DNA from: Clostridiales bacterium
GTDB taxonomy: Bacteria > Bacillota > Clostridia > Christensenellales > Borkfalkiaceae
Length of the DNA: 32,821 nt
NCBI GenBank assembly: GCA_015055725.1
Contig: SVHO01000015.1
Span: 1 to 32,821 of the forward strand
Direction: 5' to 3'
Shown: in pieces, positions 6,461-18,867 of the stretch
How the letters are laid out: each line of letters opens with the position of its first letter
Numbering within the stretch: the stretch's first letter is position 1
Program-made: the position numbers and the translations under genes
The notes under the pieces: model-generated
Told to the model about the DNA's origin: nothing
Seen by the model: the letters and a program-made list of their open reading frames with translations, nothing else
The model's database searches: none

Positions 6461-7813
6461 ATGAGCGATAAAATTTTGAAAGTTGGTTATGCAAAAGTAA
6501 ACGTCAACCCCCCAATGGGAATTGACGTGACTGGGTATTATAAAGTTCGTAAAGCGGATGGAATTTTAGACGATTTGGAAATAGTTGCAACCGCTTTTAA
6601 TCAAAACGGAAAAACGATTCTTGTTATTGCGATTGACAACTGTGGTATTAAAAAAGAAGTGATAGATGAATTCAAAGAAAAAATTACCGAAAGAACGGGT
6701 GTTCCTGCCGGGGCAATTTATATTCACGTGACCCACACGCATACGGGCCCAAGAGTTGTTCCCGTAGCAGAAGACCAATTCCAAGCAGATTATAAAACTT
6801 TGTTGTTTAGCAGAATTGCAGACGTTGCGCAATTTGCAATCGAAGACCTTAAGCCTGCAAAAATGGGTTATGGTGTTGGCGAAGCGAAAAAAGTTGCGTT
6901 TATCCGTCGTTATAAAATGAAAGACGGCACGACTAAAACTAACCCAGGTGTTAATAATCCTGATATAGTTGCACCTATCGGTGAGCTTGATGAAAGCGTT
7001 AACGTTGTTCGTTTTGATAGAGAAGGTGCTGAAACGGTTGTTTTAGTTAACTTTGCAAACCACCCAGACGTTGTTGGGGGAAACAAAATTTCTTCAGACT
7101 GGCCTGGTCTTACTAGAAGATTTGTTGAAAAAGCAATTGATAACACAAAATGTATTTTCCTTAACGGTGCACAAGGGGATGTAAACCACGTTAACGTTCA
7201 CCCCACCAAAGGCGACTTTAACGATATGTTTAACGACTTTGACGGTTGCTCACGTGGATATGGACACGCAAGACATATCGCGCGCGTTGTGACGGGTGCA
7301 GTTTTAAGTGTTTACGACAAGGTTGAATACGTTGACGTTGACGATATTAAATATTCTTTAACTTACGTTCAAGTTCCCGTAAACAAAGCAGACCCCAAAG
7401 ACTTGCCACTTGCGCATAAATATACAGATTTGCACCTTGCAGGCCGTGATGATGAAATTCCGTTTAAGGCAATGATGCTCACCACAGTCGTTGCAGAGGC
7501 AATGAGAATGGTTAGGCTCGAAAACGAACCCGAGTTTTACGATTTACCGTTCGGTGCGGTTGCTATCGGTAAGGTTGCACTTTTCGGTATCCCTGGCGAA
7601 CCGTTCAACGCAGTTGGTAGGGGTGTTAAGAAGGCTGAAGGTTGGGATTTGATTATTCCTACTTGCTTAACTAACGGCTCTGAAGGTTATTATCCGATGC
7701 AAGACTCTTATGACGAAGGCGGTTATGAGGCGCGTACTTCAACCTTTAAGGCAGGCACTGCTGAAAAGATTGTAGTTGAAGGCGTTAAGATTTTAGACCA
7801 ATTGAAAAAATAA
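6461..7813 (+). CDS. Neutral/alkaline-ceramidase-like zinc hydrolase, copy 1
   Basis: The 450-residue product resembles the N-terminal catalytic domain of neutral/alkaline ceramidases. Visible family signatures are THTHTG (His92, His94), NHPDVVGG (His201), the NGAQGDVN segment (235-242) and a C-terminal GSEGYYPM...GGYE segment (407-423, Glu408 and nearby tyrosines), corresponding to the zinc site of Pseudomonas ceramidase. The position of the ceramidase nucleophilic serine (GDVS) is Asn242 here. There is no signal peptide and the C-terminal Ig-like domain of true ceramidases is absent, so a cytosolic hydrolase with another substrate is more likely. AAGGAG precedes the ATG. It has its own promoter and terminator and is followed 192 bases later by a near-identical copy. 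Confidence 0.85.
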   Translation: MSDKILKVGYAKVNVNPPMGIDVTGYYKVRKADGILDDLEIVATAFNQNGKTILVIAIDNCGIKKEVIDEFKEKITERTGVPAGAIYIHVTHTHTGPRVVPVAEDQFQADYKTLLFSRIADVAQFAIEDLKPAKMGYGVGEAKKVAFIRRYKMKDGTTKTNPGVNNPDIVAPIGELDESVNVVRFDREGAETVVLVNFANHPDVVGGNKISSDWPGLTRRFVEKAIDNTKCIFLNGAQGDVNHVNVHPTKGDFNDMFNDFDGCSRGYGHARHIARVVTGAVLSVYDKVEYVDVDDIKYSLTYVQVPVNKADPKDLPLAHKYTDLHLAGRDDEIPFKAMMLTTVVAEAMRMVRLENEPEFYDLPFGAVAIGKVALFGIPGEPFNAVGRGVKKAEGWDLIIPTCLTNGSEGYYPMQDSYDEGGYEARTSTFKAGTAEKIVVEGVKILDQLKK

Positions 7814-8005: not shown

Positions 8006-9358
8006 ATGAGCGATAAAATTTTGAAAGTTGGTTATGCAAAAGTAAACGTCAACCCGCCAATGGGAATTGACGTGACTGGGTATTATAAAGTTCGTAAAGC
8101 GGACGGAATTTTAGACGATTTGGAAATAGTTGCAACCGCTTTTAATCAAAACGGAAAAACGATACTTGTTATTGCAATAGATAATTGTGACATAGTTAAA
8201 GAAGTCGTAAACGAATTTAAAGAAAAAATCACAAGAAGAACGGGTGTTCCTGCCGGGGCAATTTATATTCATATGACCCACACGCATACAGGCCCAAGAG
8301 TTGTGCCTGTTCCACAAGACCAACTGCAAGCAGATTATAAAACTTTGTTGTTTAGCAGAATTGCAGACGTTGCGCAATTTGCAATCGAAGACCTTAAGCC
8401 TGCAAAAATGGGTTATGGTGTTGGCGAAGCAAAAAAAGTTGCCTTTATTCGCCGTTATAAAATGAAAGACGGCACGACTAAAACTAACCCAGGTGTTAAT
8501 AATCCTGATATAGTTGCGCCCGCGGGAGAACTTGATGAAAGCGTTAACGTTGTTCGTTTTGATAGAGAAGGTGCTGAAACGGTTGTTTTAGTTAACTTTG
8601 CAAACCACCCAGACGTTGTTGGTGGAAACAAAATTTCTTCCGACTGGCCTGGTCTTACAAGAAGATTTGTCGAAAAAGCAATTGATAACACAAAATGTAT
8701 TTTTCTTAACGGCGCAGAAGGGGACGTAAATCACGTTAACGTTCACCCCACCAAAGGCGATTTTAACGATATGTTTAACGACTTTGACGGTTGCTCACGT
8801 GGATATGGACACGCAAGGCATATCGCGCGCGTTGTGACGGGTGCAGTTTTAAGCGTTTACGACAAGGTTGAATACGTTGATGTTGACGATATTAAATATT
8901 CTTTAACTTACGTTCAAGTTCCCGTAAACAAAGCAGACCCCAAAGACTTGCCACTTGCGCATAAATATACAGATTTGCACCTTGCAGGTCGTGATGATGA
9001 AATTCCGTTTGAGGCAATGATGCTTACCACAGTCGTTGGAGAAGCAATGAGAATGGTAAGTCTTGAAAACGAACCAGATTTTTACGATTTGCCGTTCGGG
9101 GCGGTTGCTATCGGTAAAGTTGCGCTTTTCGGTATCCCTGGCGAACCGTTCAACGCAGTTGGTAAGGGAATTAAAGAGGCGAAAGGTTGGGATTTGATTA
9201 TTCCCACTTGCATAACTAACGGCTCTGAAGGTTATTATCCAATGCAAGACTCTTATGACGAAGGCGGTTATGAGGCGCGTACTTCAACCTTTAAGGCAGG
9301 CACTGCAGAAAAGATTGTAATTGAAGGCATTAAGATTTTAGACCAATTGAAAAAATAA
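8006..9358 (+). CDS. Neutral/alkaline-ceramidase-like zinc hydrolase, copy 2
   Basis: This is a tandem paralogue of the preceding gene, also 450 residues and about 95% identical (I count about 22 substitutions). All predicted zinc ligands are kept (His92, His94, His201, Glu408), as is Asn242 at the ceramidase nucleophile position. Differences cluster at residues 62-107 and in the C-terminal third. The middle is nearly identical even at silent sites, which suggests gene conversion or very recent exchange. Several changes are non-conservative (Glu77 to Arg, Ala103-Glu104 to Pro-Gln, Lys/Glu swaps), so the copies may differ in partner or substrate. It has its own promoter, leader hairpin and terminator, and is cytosolic by the absence of a signal peptide. 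Confidence 0.85.
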   Translation: MSDKILKVGYAKVNVNPPMGIDVTGYYKVRKADGILDDLEIVATAFNQNGKTILVIAIDNCDIVKEVVNEFKEKITRRTGVPAGAIYIHMTHTHTGPRVVPVPQDQLQADYKTLLFSRIADVAQFAIEDLKPAKMGYGVGEAKKVAFIRRYKMKDGTTKTNPGVNNPDIVAPAGELDESVNVVRFDREGAETVVLVNFANHPDVVGGNKISSDWPGLTRRFVEKAIDNTKCIFLNGAEGDVNHVNVHPTKGDFNDMFNDFDGCSRGYGHARHIARVVTGAVLSVYDKVEYVDVDDIKYSLTYVQVPVNKADPKDLPLAHKYTDLHLAGRDDEIPFEAMMLTTVVGEAMRMVSLENEPDFYDLPFGAVAIGKVALFGIPGEPFNAVGKGIKEAKGWDLIIPTCITNGSEGYYPMQDSYDEGGYEARTSTFKAGTAEKIVIEGIKILDQLKK

Positions 9359-9457: not shown

Positions 9458-9470
9458 AAACGCATTAAAG

Positions 9471-9727
9471 GCGTTGAAGAAGAGTGCGCAGTAAAACCAA
9501 ACTTAGAGAAATGGCGGTTGGTGCAAGCCACGTGCGGTTTGTTGCGTTGTAACTTTTGAGCCGAAAGGAAGAAAGCCGTTTTTGGTAAGTAGAACCTTTC
9601 CGTGTTTGCTACGTTAACGCATAGGAGTTGATGGACTCTGAAGGTGGCAGTTATAACTGCAATTTGAGTGGTACCGCGGGTGCATATGCTCTCGTCTCAA
9701 AGTCAAACTTTGGGGCGAGTTTTTTTT
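9471..9727 (+). promoter_or_regulatory. T-box riboswitch (tRNA-sensing leader) with antiterminator/terminator switch
   Basis: The gene-free stretch 9359-9745 is mostly this element. Stem I contains the usual apical motifs (AGAGA at 9505 and GGTGCAAGCC at 9520-9529). The T-box sequence TGGTACCGCGG is at 9669-9679. In the antiterminator, TTTGAG (9663-9668) pairs with CTCAAA (9696-9701). In the terminator, CTCGTCTCAAAG (9691-9702) pairs with CTTTGGGGCGAG (9708-9719) and a T-run follows. The two share bases 9696-9701 and so exclude each other. The bulge UGGU would pair with ACCA, so the sensed tRNA should have A73. The specifier is uncertain: lower-stem pairing of AAGAG (9480-9484) with CTTTT (9553-9557) leaves TTGTAA (9547-9552), making GUA (valine) the best candidate, with UUG (leucine) as an alternative. 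Confidence 0.93.
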
Positions 9728-9745: not shown

Positions 9746-12040
9746 ATGGAACAAATGACAGGTCTTGATTTGAAGATTAAAGAGATGGCGGGGCGTATTC
9801 GCGAACTTCGTCAAATTGAAAATCTTTCAATCGAGCAAATGGCTGAAAAAACGGGTGTTTCTCCCGAAGAATATCTTGAATGTGAAAACGGAAATAAAGA
9901 CCTTAACTTTGCTTTTATTTACCGTTGCTCGCTTGCGCTTAACGTTAACGTCACGGATATTATTGAAGGGTATAGTCCAAAACTTAAAGGCTACACCGTC
10001 ACGAGATACGGTTCGGGTCAAAAAATAGCACAAGCGCATGGTATGACTTATTATAACCTTGCTTATGCTTTCCAAAACCGTATCGCAGAGCCCCTTTACG
10101 TTAGAAGCGTTTTTAGAGAAGAAGCACAAGGCAAGGATATTGAACTCACCACGCACGCAGGGCAAGAGTGCGATATTGTTATCGACGGCTATCTTATGGT
10201 TCAAATTGGCGAACATAAAGAAGTTTTAGGGCCGGGGGATAGCATTTATTACGATAGTGACACTCCGCACGGTATGATAGCGGTTAACGGGCGCGATTGC
10301 GTGTTTTACGCGATAGTTCTTAACCCCACGGGCGAGCCTATCCCAGAATTATCAAATGAAAAGAAAATTGCTAAACCTATCGTTAAAGCAACGGTTAAGG
10401 ATAGCAAAGAACGTATTTATAAAAATTATATCGACGTTGTGGAAGATGAACAAGGCACGCCCACGTCAATTAAATTTAAAAACGTTGAAAAGTTTAACTT
10501 TGCGTTTGATTTGGTTGACGCGCTTGCTGAACGCGAGCCTAATAAACTCGCTATGCTTCACGTTTCAAAGGATAAAACTGAACGTAGATTTACCTTTGCG
10601 GATATTAAAAAGGAATCTGCCCGTTCAGCAAATTACTTTAAGTCACTTGGCATCAAAAAGGGGGACAAGGTAATGCTCGTTCTCAAACGCCATTATCAAT
10701 TTTGGTTTGCAATGATAGGGCTTAATAAACTTGGGGCAGTCGCAATTTTGGCAACCAACCAACTTCAAGAGCACGATTTTGAATATAGATTTAAGGCGGC
10801 GGGTGTTAAGGCTATTATATGCACTGCCGACGGTGACACCGCTCATCAAGCAGAAATCGCTATGCAAAACTGCCCTGAATTGACGCATAAAATTATGGTT
10901 AACGGAAAAAGGGAAGGTTGGCGTTGCTTTGACGAAGAATACGCCCTTTATTCAACACACTTTAACCGCACGGAAGATACCGCTTGTGGTGACGACCCCT
11001 TGCTTATGTTCTTTACTTCGGGAACGAGTGGATATCCAAAAATGGCAATGCACAATCACAAATATCCGCTTGGGCATTTCCATACGGCAAAATATTGGCA
11101 TAACGTTGACCCTGAAGGTTTACACTTTACCATTTCCGATACTGGTTGGGCAAAATCAATGTGGGGCAAATTGTATGGACAATGGCTTTGCGAAGCACCA
11201 ACTTTCGTTTACGACTTTGACCGCTTTGATGCGAGCGATATTTTGCCTATGTTTGCAAAATATCATATCACCACTTTCTGCGCGCCACCCACAATGCTCC
11301 GTATGCTTATTAAACAAGATTTAAGCAAGTATGATTTTTCGTCTGTTCATCATATGTCAACTGCGGGCGAGGCGTTAAACCCTGAAGTTTATAGTCAATT
11401 TGAAAAGTTGACTGGGCTTCAAATCAAAGAAGGCTTTGGACAATCTGAAACGACAATGTTAATCGGTAATTTGGTTGGCAAATCACATAAGGTTGGTTCA
11501 ATGGGTAAACCTGCGCCTATATACGATATTGATATCGTTGACGATAAAGGTAATTCCGTTCCCGACGGTGAAGTTGGCGAAATAGTTGTAAACGTTAAAA
11601 ACGGCGCACCGTGTGGGTTGTTTACGGGATATTACCGTGACGAAGAAAAAACCAAAGAAGTATGGCACGACGGATTTTATCACACGGGCGATACCGCTTG
11701 GCGTGATGAAGACGGCTTTTTCTGGTACGTTGGTAGGGTTGACGACGTTATTAAGTCAAGTGGCTATCGCATAGGGCCGTTTGAAATTGAAAGCGTTATT
11801 ATGGAACTTCCATACGTTTTAGAGTGTGGCGTTTCCGCCGAACCTGACGAAGTGCGTGGGCAAGTTGTTAAGGCAAGCATAGTGCTTGTAAAAGGAACTG
11901 AGCCTAGCGAAGAGTTGAAAAAAGAAATTCAAGCATACGTTAAAGCAAAAACCGCGCCTTATAAATATCCGCGTATAGTTGTGTTCCGTGATGAACTTCC
12001 CAAAACCGTTAGCGGAAAAATACAACGCAACAAATTATAA
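9746..12040 (+). CDS. XRE/cupin/acyl-CoA synthetase (AMP-binding) fusion protein
   Basis: This 764-residue protein has three parts. Residues 14-72 form an XRE-type helix-turn-helix (IRELRQIENLSIEQMAEKTG). Residues about 115-195 form a cupin (THAGQECDIVIDG, GPGDSIYYDSDTPHG). Residues about 250-764 form an adenylate-forming ligase with the ATP loop FFTSGTSGYPK (422-432), GFGQSETT (A5), YHTGDTAWRDEDG and GRVDDVIKSSGYRIGP (A7-A8) and the terminal PKTVSGKIQR containing catalytic Lys758. The ligase domain resembles acetyl/medium-chain acyl-CoA synthetases and would activate a carboxylic acid with ATP and CoA. AGGAGG precedes the ATG. T-box control implies use when an amino acid (possibly branched-chain) is short, so activation of a branched or aromatic acid for amino-acid resynthesis is a plausible role. 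The DNA-binding domain may also regulate genes. Confidence 0.88.
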   Translation: MEQMTGLDLKIKEMAGRIRELRQIENLSIEQMAEKTGVSPEEYLECENGNKDLNFAFIYRCSLALNVNVTDIIEGYSPKLKGYTVTRYGSGQKIAQAHGMTYYNLAYAFQNRIAEPLYVRSVFREEAQGKDIELTTHAGQECDIVIDGYLMVQIGEHKEVLGPGDSIYYDSDTPHGMIAVNGRDCVFYAIVLNPTGEPIPELSNEKKIAKPIVKATVKDSKERIYKNYIDVVEDEQGTPTSIKFKNVEKFNFAFDLVDALAEREPNKLAMLHVSKDKTERRFTFADIKKESARSANYFKSLGIKKGDKVMLVLKRHYQFWFAMIGLNKLGAVAILATNQLQEHDFEYRFKAAGVKAIICTADGDTAHQAEIAMQNCPELTHKIMVNGKREGWRCFDEEYALYSTHFNRTEDTACGDDPLLMFFTSGTSGYPKMAMHNHKYPLGHFHTAKYWHNVDPEGLHFTISDTGWAKSMWGKLYGQWLCEAPTFVYDFDRFDASDILPMFAKYHITTFCAPPTMLRMLIKQDLSKYDFSSVHHMSTAGEALNPEVYSQFEKLTGLQIKEGFGQSETTMLIGNLVGKSHKVGSMGKPAPIYDIDIVDDKGNSVPDGEVGEIVVNVKNGAPCGLFTGYYRDEEKTKEVWHDGFYHTGDTAWRDEDGFFWYVGRVDDVIKSSGYRIGPFEIESVIMELPYVLECGVSAEPDEVRGQVVKASIVLVKGTEPSEELKKEIQAYVKAKTAPYKYPRIVVFRDELPKTVSGKIQRNKL

Positions 12041-15330: not shown

Positions 15331-16296
15331 ATGGTACAGAAAAAGAGAAAGATTTCAATTTTAGGCGCAGGAAACGTTGGTGCAACGATTGCTTATGCTT
15401 TAACGTTGCAAGGTGTTTGTTCAGAAATAGTTTTAGTTGATATCAATAAAGAAAAGGCAGAAGGTGAAGCCCTTGATATAACTCAATGTGCAGCTTGCGT
15501 TCCTTCTTGCAAAATTTGGTGCGGAGATTATGCAGACGTTGCTGGGTCAGACGTTGTGGTTATCACCTTTGGCGTTGGTAGAAAACCCGGTCAAACGAGG
15601 CTTGACCTTGCTGCTATTAACGTTGGAATTTTAAAGAGCGTTATTAAGGCAAACGATTTCAAGAAAATCGCGCCTGACGCGTTGTACGTTGTTGTTTCAA
15701 ACCCCGTTGACGTTATGACGTACGTTTTGATGAAAGAAGCAGGCTTAAAGAAAGAACAAGTTATCGGTACGGGCACTTTACTTGACTCTAACCGTCTTGT
15801 TCAAGCAGTTGCATCTTATTGCAAAGTTGACGCTTCTAACGTAAACGCATACGTTTTCGGTGAACACGGTGACGCATGTATGGCTCCTTGGAGTTTATGT
15901 ACCGTTTGCGGTATGAATATTAGAGATTACTGCACCAAGATTATGGGCGTAAATAAAGAACAACTTGAAGATGAACTTAACAATATTTACACGGGTATGG
16001 TTGCTGCAGGCTCTAAAGTTATTAAAGCAAAGGGCGCAACGTTCTATGCAATTGCAGCATCAACCGTTCAACTTATCAAGGCGTTAGTTTCAGATACCGA
16101 AACCATTTTATCAGTTGCAACTTATCTTGATGGGCAATACGGTGCAAAAGACCTTTGCACAGGCGTTCTTTGTAAGGTTGGTGGAACGGGATTAAAAGAA
16201 ATAGTTGAACTCCCGCTACCTGAAGAAGAAATGAAACTCTTCTCTGAAAAACTTGCTTCGCTTGACAACACTTTCAACGCATTGAACGTTAGATAA
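15331..16296 (+). CDS. L-lactate/malate dehydrogenase family protein
   Basis: This 321-residue NAD-dependent 2-hydroxyacid dehydrogenase has the Rossmann motif GAGNVGATIAY (12-22), an acidic NAD-selecting Asp37 (LVDIN), the mobile-loop segment GRKPGQTRLDL (83-93), the catalytic LLDSNR (Asp152, Arg155) and the proton-relay GEHGD. Overall it looks like bacterial L-lactate dehydrogenase. The residue aligned with Gln102 of Bacillus LDH, which selects lactate over malate, is Arg84 here, as in malate dehydrogenases; the Q102R change is known to switch LDH to malate. The activity could therefore be malate, lactate or another 2-oxoacid. The next gene sits behind a riboswitch with no terminator before it. 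Confidence 0.87.
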   Translation: MVQKKRKISILGAGNVGATIAYALTLQGVCSEIVLVDINKEKAEGEALDITQCAACVPSCKIWCGDYADVAGSDVVVITFGVGRKPGQTRLDLAAINVGILKSVIKANDFKKIAPDALYVVVSNPVDVMTYVLMKEAGLKKEQVIGTGTLLDSNRLVQAVASYCKVDASNVNAYVFGEHGDACMAPWSLCTVCGMNIRDYCTKIMGVNKEQLEDELNNIYTGMVAAGSKVIKAKGATFYAIAASTVQLIKALVSDTETILSVATYLDGQYGAKDLCTGVLCKVGGTGLKEIVELPLPEEEMKLFSEKLASLDNTFNALNVR

Positions 16297-16311
16297 ATTT
16301 AATCGGAAAGA

Positions 16312-16415
16312 TTAAAAGGGAGTAGTTTACGCTTGAATTGAGCGTCTGCTTTGTCGTCAACACGGCATTTTGCTCGGCGAGCAGAATTACAAATGGTAGT
16401 TTAACAAGACTTTTA
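16312..16415 (+). promoter_or_regulatory. yybP-ykoY (manganese) riboswitch aptamer
   Basis: The segment has the hallmarks of the Mn2+-sensing motif: AAAAGGGAGTAG (16314-16325) for P1 and loop L1; a P2 hairpin (ACGCT/AGCGT, 16329-16345); TTTGTCGTCAACACGG holding the L3 CGTCA (16355-16359); a P3 closed by CTGCT (16346-16350) and AGCAG (16380-16384); and the 3' TTTAACAAGACTTTTA that closes P1 (TAAAAG with CTTTTA, 16410-16415). This order matches the family well. The 3' strand of P1 is reused in the terminator that follows, so Mn2+ binding should switch expression on. Confidence 0.88.
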
Positions 16416-16449
16416 TCGTCAATAATTACGGTAAAAGTCTTTTATTTTT
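16406..16449 (+). terminator. Riboswitch expression-platform terminator
   Basis: AAGACTTTTA (16406-16415) pairs with TAAAAGTCTT (16432-16441), followed by a T-rich tail (to 16449). It overlaps the aptamer P1 strand, so aptamer folding and termination exclude each other. Confidence 0.85.
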
Positions 16450-16458
16450 GGAGCACTT

Positions 16459-17817
16459 ATGAAGATTTTTATTTTAATTTTATTCGTTTTAATGTATATA
16501 GGAATTATCGTTTTTCCTAAATACAAACCGCATATCACGGGTGCAACGGCATTTATTGCCGTTGTTTCGTGCGTGATATCTAAGGATATGCTTTGGCACG
16601 AATCATTTTCAAGCGCAATCAATTATAACGTTGTTATGATGCTTTTAGGCATTATGATTACCGTTGGCTTATTTTCAGAATCAGGCATGCCGAATAAACT
16701 TGCCGATAAAATTATTTCTAAAATACCCAACGCAATGTGGATTTTAGTTTTGCTATCAGTATTAAGTGGCATTATATCAGCTTTCGTCGATAACGTTGCA
16801 ACGGTTTTAATGCTTGCGCCTATTGGGCTTGCAGTTGCTAAAAAAGTTAACATCTCGCCTATACCCGTTTTAATAAGCATTTCCGTTTCAAGCAACTTGC
16901 AAGGCGCGGCAACCCTAGTTGGTGACACCACTTCCGTTATGCTTGCTGGTGAACTCGGTATGAGTTTTATGGACTTCTTCTTTATGGACGGAAAGTTGTC
17001 TATCTTTTGGGCAGTTGAACTTGGTATGCTACTTACTATTCCCGTTCTTATATTTATATTTAGGAAGAATAACCAAAGGATTAGCATTACGCCTGAAAAA
17101 ATTCAAGTGACAACTATTTTCCCAACGGTAATGTTGGTGCTTAATATAGTGTGCTTAGTCGTGTGCTCGTTTGTTTCTATACCAAACGCCTTTATTTCAG
17201 ACCACGTAAACGGTTTGGTTTGTATGTTTTTTGGTATCATTTGTTTGATTTATCACGTTGCAACGGCTAAAAGACAGGCGATTGAAAATGTTAATGAAGA
17301 CGGCTCGACTACAACCGATTTTATCGGTGGTAAAAAAGAAGCAGTGAAAACGGTTTTAGGAACTATCGATTTCCCAACAGTTTTATTCTTGGTTTTCTTG
17401 TTTATTATTATTCGTGCAGTAAACAACGTTGGAATTATTGCGGATATAAGCAGTTTCTTTGCATCTATCGGTGCTAAAAACATATTCTTGCTTTATACGC
17501 TTATAGTGTTTGGTTCGGTGCTTATTTCAGCGTTTATTGATAATATTCCTTACGTTGCAACAATGCTTCCCGTAATTGCAGGCTTAGGACTTACGGGAAA
17601 CGCGCAAATTCTTTTGTGCTTTGGTTTGTTATGTGGTGCAACGCTTGGTGGAAACATCACGCCCGTGGGCGCATCTGCAAACGTGGTTGCAATAGGTATG
17701 CTCAATAAAGAAGGGTATAAGGTTAAATCAAGCGACTTCTTTAAGATAGGTATTCCGTTTACATTAGTTGCTGTTTTAGGTGGATATGCGTTGATTTGGT
17801 TTGTTTTTGGAATTTAA
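16459..17817 (+). CDS. ArsB/NhaD-type (ion transporter superfamily) permease under Mn riboswitch
   Basis: This 452-residue integral membrane protein has about 11-12 hydrophobic helices. Two related inverted-repeat motifs are visible: SAFVDNVATVLMLAPI in the first half and SAFIDNIPYVATMLPVI in the second, plus GATLGGNITPVGASANVV near the C-terminus. These are typical of the ArsB/NhaD/SLC13 ion transporter superfamily, which exports arsenite, exchanges Na+/H+ or carries anions. The cytosolic charged loop at about 265-300 separates the halves. Placement behind a Mn2+ riboswitch suggests manganese export or manganese-linked ion homeostasis, although the family is not one of the classic Mn exporters. 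GGAG lies 8-9 bases before the ATG. A PHP-domain gene starts 18 bases after its stop. Confidence 0.82.
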   Translation: MKIFILILFVLMYIGIIVFPKYKPHITGATAFIAVVSCVISKDMLWHESFSSAINYNVVMMLLGIMITVGLFSESGMPNKLADKIISKIPNAMWILVLLSVLSGIISAFVDNVATVLMLAPIGLAVAKKVNISPIPVLISISVSSNLQGAATLVGDTTSVMLAGELGMSFMDFFFMDGKLSIFWAVELGMLLTIPVLIFIFRKNNQRISITPEKIQVTTIFPTVMLVLNIVCLVVCSFVSIPNAFISDHVNGLVCMFFGIICLIYHVATAKRQAIENVNEDGSTTTDFIGGKKEAVKTVLGTIDFPTVLFLVFLFIIIRAVNNVGIIADISSFFASIGAKNIFLLYTLIVFGSVLISAFIDNIPYVATMLPVIAGLGLTGNAQILLCFGLLCGATLGGNITPVGASANVVAIGMLNKEGYKVKSSDFFKIGIPFTLVAVLGGYALIWFVFGI

Positions 17818-17835
17818 TTTTATAAGGAACTAATT

Positions 17836-18867
17836 ATGAAAAAATATCTTATTGAGGATAAAAAGTATTATAAGGCAAACTTGCATTCGCACTCAACTCA
17901 TTCAGACGGGAAGTTAACTATTGAAGAAAATATAAGAGAGTATAAGGCGAAAGGGTATTCTATATACGCTATAACCGACCATTGTTATACTGAAAATTTT
18001 CACAAAAAGTTTACAAATAAAGATTTCGTTGTAATTAACGGATATGAAAACGTAATTTGGGATAGCGAAAAGTTTGTTGAAGACGATAAATTAAGAAATA
18101 GTCTCAAAGTTTACCATTTTAACTTTTTCGCGAAAAATCCTGAAAATTTGGTAATGGTTGGGATTAATTATGATGGATATCATCGTTTTTTTGAAAAGGT
18201 GTTGCATCCCGAAAATATAAAGAATGAATATTACGGTGGTGAATTTGCAAAATTAAAGTATAGCGTCGATTGCGTAAATAAAATGATTGAACAAGCCAAC
18301 AAAGCAGGCTTTTTGGTGCAATATAACCATCCTGTATGGAGTTTGAATGAACCGAAAGATTATCTTGGATTAAAAGGGCTTTGGGCTATGGAAATATATA
18401 ATACCGACTGTAATCAATTAGGGCTTAATGAAGAAAATGAATATATATACGACCTAATGCTACGAGACGGGCAAGACTTATGCGTGACCGCTAACGACGA
18501 TAATCATGGATTTGCCGATAGATTCGGTGGATTTAGTATGATAGGCGCAAACGAATTGACTTATGAAGCCGTTATATCAGCAATGGAAAGAAAAGATTTG
18601 TATGCGTCAACCGGTCCATTGATAGAATATATATATTATGAAAACGGAAAGTTTTTTATTAAATGCACAGATGCGGTTAAAATAGTAATGCTTTGTGGAG
18701 GAAGAAGAGCGAGGGTTTTACGTGCAACTGATAAAGAAATTAATTACGCAGAGTTTGATGACTTTAACGAACCGGTTGACTTAAAGTATTATCGATTTGA
18801 AATAACGGATAAAAACGGAAAAAAGGCGTATACGAGAGCATATCTCAAAAAAGAAATTCATGGTTAA
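17836..18867 (+). CDS. PHP-domain metal-dependent phosphoesterase
   Basis: The 343-residue product begins with the PHP signature NLHSHSTHSDGKLT (His17, His19, Asp24) and AITDH (Asp48, His49), followed by YNHPVW (His165), Glu186 and TANDDNHG (Asp221/222, His224). These are the usual metal ligands of a trinuclear phosphoesterase site. The C-terminal about 90 residues form a small beta-rich domain seen in PHP hydrolases of this length. The substrate is not readable; the family includes histidinol phosphatases and nucleotide phosphodiesterases. It is 18 bases downstream of the transporter with AAGGAAC before the ATG and ends at a terminator, so it shares the Mn2+ riboswitch. PHP enzymes commonly use Mn2+, which gives the co-regulation a possible rationale. 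Confidence 0.85.
   Translation: MKKYLIEDKKYYKANLHSHSTHSDGKLTIEENIREYKAKGYSIYAITDHCYTENFHKKFTNKDFVVINGYENVIWDSEKFVEDDKLRNSLKVYHFNFFAKNPENLVMVGINYDGYHRFFEKVLHPENIKNEYYGGEFAKLKYSVDCVNKMIEQANKAGFLVQYNHPVWSLNEPKDYLGLKGLWAMEIYNTDCNQLGLNEENEYIYDLMLRDGQDLCVTANDDNHGFADRFGGFSMIGANELTYEAVISAMERKDLYASTGPLIEYIYYENGKFFIKCTDAVKIVMLCGGRRARVLRATDKEINYAEFDDFNEPVDLKYYRFEITDKNGKKAYTRAYLKKEIHG

Follow-up and report, generated by a model that had tools for sequence, protein, structure and literature searches.

A yybP-ykoY-class riboswitch precedes a candidate Mn2+/H+ antiporter of the ion-transporter superfamily in Clostridia

We have analyzed a DNA stretch of 32,821 nucleotides (nt), referred to as the window, which is contig SVHO01000015.1 of a Clostridiales bacterium of the Borkfalkiaceae (assembly GCA_015055725.1). 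The window contains an RNA element of the yybP-ykoY class located directly upstream of a gene encoding a protein of the ion-transporter superfamily. The identification of this element as a riboswitch is secure. Its architecture is observed at the locus; from the properties of the class we infer that the leader is a transcriptional riboswitch activated by Mn2+, and both ligand and switching are assigned on this basis. Regulation and residues indicate that the transporter is most likely a Mn2+/H+ antiporter which expels surplus Mn2+. On balance, and with modest confidence, we favor a wider reading: the protein would belong to a so far unnamed exporter class of NhaD-like Mn2+/H+ antiporters that in evolution traded places with P-type ATPases as clients of one switch, and in this genus the riboswitch would act in addition as an internal valve within a dehydrogenase operon. 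A testable substrate would thereby be available for transporters that commonly go by the name of citrate, arsenite or sodium carriers, in Clostridia of gut and rumen, among them cultured Butyrivibrio.

The whole element including its terminator comprises positions 16310-16441, directly 5' of the transporter open reading frame (ORF) (Table 1). The 5' arm of the terminator (16406-16419) encloses the entire 3' strand of P1 (16410-16417); hence, P1 and the terminator are mutually exclusive. The minimum-energy fold of the leader has a z-score of -4.4, and none of 200 shuffled sequences was equally stable. At low Mn2+, the weak P1 would open, its 3' strand would join the terminator, and transcription would halt before the transporter gene. 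With Mn2+ in excess, the L1-L3 site would close, P1 would be held, the terminator would be blocked and the transporter would be made. Antitermination through P1 is described for yybP-ykoY in an excerpt of PMC6754395. An excerpt of PMC11477304 calls yybP-ykoY elements "OFF" switches, which is at odds with the layout at this locus.

Table 1. Features of the riboswitch locus and its neighboring genes; positions are those of the window.
Feature	Position	Strand	Basis or remark
L-lactate/malate dehydrogenase family gene	15331-16296	+	Ldh_1_N/Ldh_1_C
yybP-ykoY-class aptamer	16310-16417	+	32-row alignment and covariation, model R1
P1 helix	16310-16318/16410-16417	+	outer pairs by eye from sequence
L1 adenosine	16321	+	aligned here to A10 of the Lactococcus lactis aptamer (cross-helix A-minor contact)
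P1.2 helix	16325-16327/16403-16405	+	
P2 helix	16329-16333/16341-16345	+	
P3 helix	16346-16356/16375-16384	+	outer pairs by eye from sequence
L3 adenosine	16359	+	aligned here to Mn2+-contacting A41 (L. lactis) / A48 (Xanthomonas oryzae)
P3.2 helix	16364-16366/16372-16374	+	
P4 helix	16385-16390/16396-16401	+	by eye from sequence
Intrinsic terminator	16406-16441	+	14 pairs, T-rich tail, -15.2 kcal/mol
GGAG, likely ribosome-binding site of the transporter	16450-16453	+	read from sequence
Ion-transporter-superfamily protein, 452 amino acids, CitMHS/ArsB-like	16459-17817	+	candidate Mn2+/H+ antiporter
PHP-domain (CehA/McbA-like) protein, 343 amino acids	17836-18867	+	PF02811, 36.3 bits vs cut-off 26.4

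Leaders of transporter relatives were aligned to examine the structure. Alignment A1 comprises 32 of 34 distinct leaders; those of loci L035 and L039 were dropped as long or divergent, and L059 and L090 were omitted by hand. The consensus structure was obtained with RNAalifold, three outer pairs of P3 were added by hand, and 29 pairs were counted. Over these pairs, 91.8% of the cells are paired as compared to a mean of 75.5 in shuffled alignments, and covariation amounts to 0.562 versus 0.237 in the shuffles; none of 500 shuffles was as high on any of five measures. Slid versions of the structure pair to just 39-44%. Changes on both sides were found for 21 of the 29 pairs and occur in all five counted helices, which establishes the four-way junction P1/P1.2/P2/P3/L3. 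P4 is present in the window and absent or variable in the other rows. The rows had been chosen by a sequence motif that comprises the L1 and L3 adenosines, and the constancy of this motif in A1 is therefore partly a matter of construction, which does not apply to the helices. In 31 of the 32 rows the AGACUUUU strand serves both to close P1 and to build a terminator; L069 is the exception at the criterion used.

A covariance model, R1, was built solely from the 32 leaders of A1. It gives the window element 86.8 bits, a circular value for a training row. Furthermore, R1 detects two leaders of Escherichia coli which were not used for training, each in full length and 5' of its gene, namely that of mntP with 33.3 bits (E = 9e-6) and that of alx with 24.9 bits (E = 9e-4), the E-values being rough. 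With the known members of yybP-ykoY (RF00080; E. coli mntP and alx; L. lactis and X. oryzae) the element has in common the four-way junction of P1, P1.2, P2 and P3 with L3, P4, the near-constant core GGAGUA, C..CA and AAGAC, the constant L3 adenosine, and a P1 overlapping the terminator. It differs from them in being missed by the Rfam 15 model, in preceding a CitMHS/ArsB-type transporter and, within the genus of the window, in being flanked by two genes that leave hardly any space for a promoter of its own. A first inspection of the same DNA without database searches (the sequence-only reading) had described a yybP-ykoY aptamer with a P1-sharing terminator in front of an ion-transporter-superfamily gene; covariation, R1 and core conservation confirm it at this very place.

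The pair of switch and transporter recurs among relatives. The best 80 transporter loci, 756 kb in all, were scanned with R1 at E ≤ 0.5. This yielded 36 matches, 35 of which stop 28-126 nt short of the transporter match; the 36th is a partial one in front of the transporter of L037, and no match was found elsewhere in the 756 kb. On a quickly built tree of 82 transporters, in which L255 has a very long branch and L075 was not counted, presence of the element changes state at least 14 times, with gain and loss being indistinguishable. The pairing recurs across distant clades. Cultured carriers of the pair are Butyrivibrio hungatei DSM 14810 (L058) and Butyrivibrio sp. WCD3002 (L063). Among the literature matches listed, no title or abstract opening names this transporter family as a yybP-ykoY client, an earlier mention being possible.

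Within the genus of the window, R1 matched in 40 of 44 genomes at 41 places, and the transporter was likewise found in 40 of the 44. Examination of 40 elements revealed 34 in front of the transporter, five in front of a P-type cation ATPase and one at a contig edge; in this genus the transporter is the rule as client. Two genomes devoid of the transporter (G039, G184) and two that possess it without an intact element (G133, G127) carry the element before the ATPase, and this exchange of clients speaks for the exporter reading; G196 has the element at both genes. Neither transporter nor element was found in G205 and G103. In G202 the transporter starts at the contig edge and is not countable for the element; in G201 the element, situated at the edge of a contig, was left unclassed, and the transporter, L033 by its coordinates, has no match upstream. 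G127 contains, besides the intact element at the ATPase, a partial R1 match of 56 nt (26.3 bits; L282, positions 825-880) before its transporter, which is apparently the same gene as that of L037. The partial match resembles a degenerate switch of which essentially the terminator is left.

A different distribution was obtained for the phylum, sampled with 398 genomes, 146 of which gave an R1 match at E ≤ 1e-4. BLAST over the 1500 nt downstream served to class the following gene, with Pfam names taken from representatives. The 109 loci considered are the better-scoring part of the matches listed; L169 and L277 hold the same element, leaving 108 distinct ones. Their clients are TerC (30), P-type ATPase (25), GDT1 (15), Na/Ca exchanger (13), oxaloacetate decarboxylase beta (7), DUF5685 (3) and the CitMHS type (2), with 13 unassigned; the ATPase gene of L256 lies 998 nt downstream and does not adjoin its element. 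Of the two CitMHS cases, one (L150) is apparently located in the genome of L058. In this sample the transporter type of the window is a minor client. The tabulation of the families downstream of the riboswitch, proposed as a check in the sequence-only reading, shows the transporter as the main client within the genus and as a minor one among the better-scoring elements of the phylum. P-type ATPase is a recognised client of Mn2+ riboswitches according to an excerpt of PMC11477304. The known clients MntP, TerC/Alx, P-type ATPase, GDT1 and Na/Ca exchangers have the element and its position in common with the transporter, and presumably the job as well; they belong to other Pfam families. Additionally, two unusual client types were noticed. 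The oxaloacetate decarboxylase beta type (L149, L151, L164, L165, L171, L177, L222; PF03977 with 511 bits for L171) is another client without an obvious tie to manganese; the DUF5685 type was found at L213, L216 and L217 (PF18937 for L216).

The best Pfam family of the transporter is CitMHS (PF03600, 195.7 bits vs a cut-off of 31.9), and its best folds are ArsB and DASS, which places it in the ion-transporter superfamily. Two hairpins carry SxxxDN motifs, S107/D111/N112 and S357/D361/N362. Both are invariant in all 59 proteins of alignment A2, which consists of the window protein and 58 proteins from the best 80 transporter loci. Residues of this pattern are needed in the NhaD antiporter HhNhaD1, as stated in an excerpt of PMC9408914. 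The protein would be of the elevator type, with one acidic residue per hairpin, and would expel surplus Mn2+ in exchange for H+. The sequence-only reading had suggested a manganese exporter from a family not usually given that role; recurrence of the pair in distant clades, exchange with the ATPase as client, and the cation-antiporter residues support this suggestion.

Upstream of the element in the window lies the dehydrogenase gene; that the switch stands between this gene and the transporter had escaped the sequence-only reading. Its product passes two cut-offs, L-LDH-NAD with 310.6 vs 303.55 bits and a malate dehydrogenase subfamily with 292.7 vs 283; in its RKPGQTR stretch, Arg is the malate-type residue. 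The distance from the stop codon to the R1 match is 13 nt in the window and 1-27 nt in 32 of the 34 transporter loci of the genus. The two exceptions are L145, situated at a contig edge, and L188, which has no such ORF; in the genome of the latter (G024), a dehydrogenase match stops 586 nt short of the transporter (L006). At the five ATPase loci of the genus, 35-186 nt separate the element from the closest ORF on its upstream side. A spacing of 1-27 nt leaves no room for a promoter in between, one inside the dehydrogenase gene being possible, and a consensus promoter scan between dehydrogenase and element found none, which is weak evidence. Judged by the spacing, the switch probably follows the dehydrogenase gene as an internal attenuator that meters read-through. 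In the genus, the transcript would come from the adjoining dehydrogenase gene; the riboswitch terminator would also end the dehydrogenase message, and Mn2+ would decide on read-through. This arrangement suggests that Mn2+ riboswitches may act between the genes of an operon. If so, the supply of exporter in this genus would follow both the expression of a fermentation gene and Mn2+.

Several observations weigh against a Mn2+ exporter under a Mn2+ riboswitch. The sequence-only reading had proposed a search by Infernal with the yybP-ykoY model and had regarded a poor covariance score as evidence against itself; with RF00080 of Rfam 15, this poor score is what was obtained. RF00080 had no match in the window (E ≤ 1), in a stretch of 176 bases around the leader (E ≤ 10) or in the whole genome (E ≤ 10), and the window element stays below 45 bits, a limit for detection and not a biological feature. 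The model also misses the leader of L058, whose core equals that of the window. RF00080 matches were found in nine of 14 control genomes, in two of them above the cut-off; among relatives, 13 loci in 12 of 30 genomes were matched, none above it. Of these 13 loci eight were tried with R1 and six matched (L108 and L111 did not), which speaks for the homology of the leaders; both models mark the identical place in L104, which for the other five was deduced from flank lengths. These results show that a clear branch of the Mn2+ riboswitches escapes the Rfam model. It was also noticed that the printed consensus of RF00080 leaves the P1 region unpaired. Furthermore, 44 of the 80 transporter loci have no detected element (L075 offers only 64 nt upstream), in addition to L037 with its remnant. 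In the genus, G133 has an element-less transporter and an intact element before the ATPase, and in G181, which also possesses the transporter, no element was detected. The superfamily carries mostly anions or Na+, and because SxxxDN is common to relatives with and without the element, the motif alone does not point to Mn2+. Finally, matches to PF02659 (Mntp), some of them weaker and of half length, occur in 41 of the 44 genus genomes, and matches to PF00689 (Cation_ATPase_C) in 43. As both are nearly genus-wide, the transporter would be an additional rather than the sole exporter; that it is the only manganese exporter in the genome was considered and rejected on these counts. The MntP-family gene in the genome of the window, which the sequence-only reading had not noticed, had no R1 element in the R1 scan.

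A further point of this kind is that some yybP variants are expected to sense other divalent ions, according to an excerpt of PMC7266159. The element could then be a variant tuned to another divalent ion, which the transporter expels; superfamily and motifs speak for cation antiport and do not tell which cation. We consider this unlikely in view of the metal core. According to an excerpt of PMC6754395, the L3 adenosine that contacts Mn2+ (A41/A48) is invariable, and the L1 adenosine A10 crosses helices. We compared 70 elements from seven client groups, chosen by us among those found with the A1-based R1. The L1 adenosine (16321) and the L3 adenosine (16359), the latter discriminating, are each A in 70 of 70. 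A ligand-shifted aptamer was rejected after comparison of the core letters across client groups, since the L1 and L3 letters of the transporter leaders agree with those of most TerC and P-type ATPase leaders. The P1.2 pair 16326/16404 is mostly U-A in transporter leaders and mostly C-G in most others, a difference in favor of another ion, though it lies outside the metal core. L3 deviates in GDT1 leaders and in E. coli mntP, and not in transporter leaders. This divergent L3, with A at 16356 and 16357 and U at 16360, is shared by the GDT1-type leaders L207, L210, L212, L223, L237 and L253 with E. coli mntP (L118).

With Mn2+ as the ligand, the transporter could still be a Na+/H+ antiporter or a general protein of pH or ion homeostasis recruited by Mn2+ stress. 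Its residue pattern matches NhaD. Alkalization is connected with the alx and mntP switches of E. coli, and an excerpt of PMC9603457 links it to the mntP riboswitch. The transporter shares with HhNhaD1 the superfamily and SxxxDN in both hairpins; it differs in its position under a Mn2+ riboswitch and in scoring far below the NCBIfam NhaD cut-offs (TIGR00775, 26.2 vs 577.1 bits; NF038006, 23.7 vs 80). This score, together with the P-type cation ATPases that fill the same slot at five of the 40 genus elements, makes a Na+ or pH function quite improbable. The ArsB equivalog score is also low (TIGR00935, 43 vs 415 bits). ArsB (10tp), as its excerpted description has it, binds neutral As(OH)3 via Asn111, Asn337 and Ser380 and possesses Asp112, whereas in the window transporter an Asp precedes each of two Asn. 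In a profile alignment counted by eye, Asp111 falls on Ala110, Asp361 on Asn336 and Val113 on Asp112 of ArsB; the residues of the As(OH)3 pocket are not shared.

Alternatively, the protein might carry a carboxylate or metal-citrate alongside the dehydrogenase, Mn2+ being sensed for the need of a metabolic enzyme. CitMHS is named for citrate transporters, and what is conserved upstream in the genus is the dehydrogenase gene. However, in VcINDY, a DASS carrier, D111 aligns with the Ser of the first hairpin motif SNT, which is named in an excerpt of PMC13381914. Moreover, the dehydrogenase stands beside the transporter in just 16 of the best 80 loci, all within the 18-row clade of the window, whereas the pairing of switch and transporter reaches beyond that clade. 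We therefore regard carboxylate transport as very improbable. A chance RNA-like sequence that is no riboswitch, for which the missing RF00080 score would speak, is refuted for practical purposes: the helices covary, the element recurs, its core is conserved, and R1 recovers the leaders of mntP and alx from E. coli.

Downstream of the candidate Mn2+/H+ antiporter, the PHP ORF follows at a distance of 18 nt. The CehA/McbA score of its product is 67.7 bits, below the cut-off of 80. The sequence-only reading had proposed a manganese-dependent partner. This proposal was rejected: of the best 80 transporter loci, 73 have at least 1100 nt downstream, and none of these 73 has a PHP homologue there (tblastn, E ≤ 1e-8, a search which a more diverged PHP would escape), and among the loci examined a homologue occurs solely in the window's own genome (L001, L148). 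The PHP gene may be co-transcribed here and is not considered part of the system.

Three further features of the window were noted. A T-box leader at 9465-9702 (RF00230, 89.4 bits, just below the gathering score of 93) precedes an ORF encoding a helix-turn-helix-cupin-AMP-binding ligase (9746-12040). Two near-identical tandem ORFs of 450 amino acids (6461-7813 and 8006-9358) apparently result from a recent duplication. On the reverse strand, a tRNA match at positions 1-74 (RF00005, 30 bits vs 29) is cut by the start of the window.

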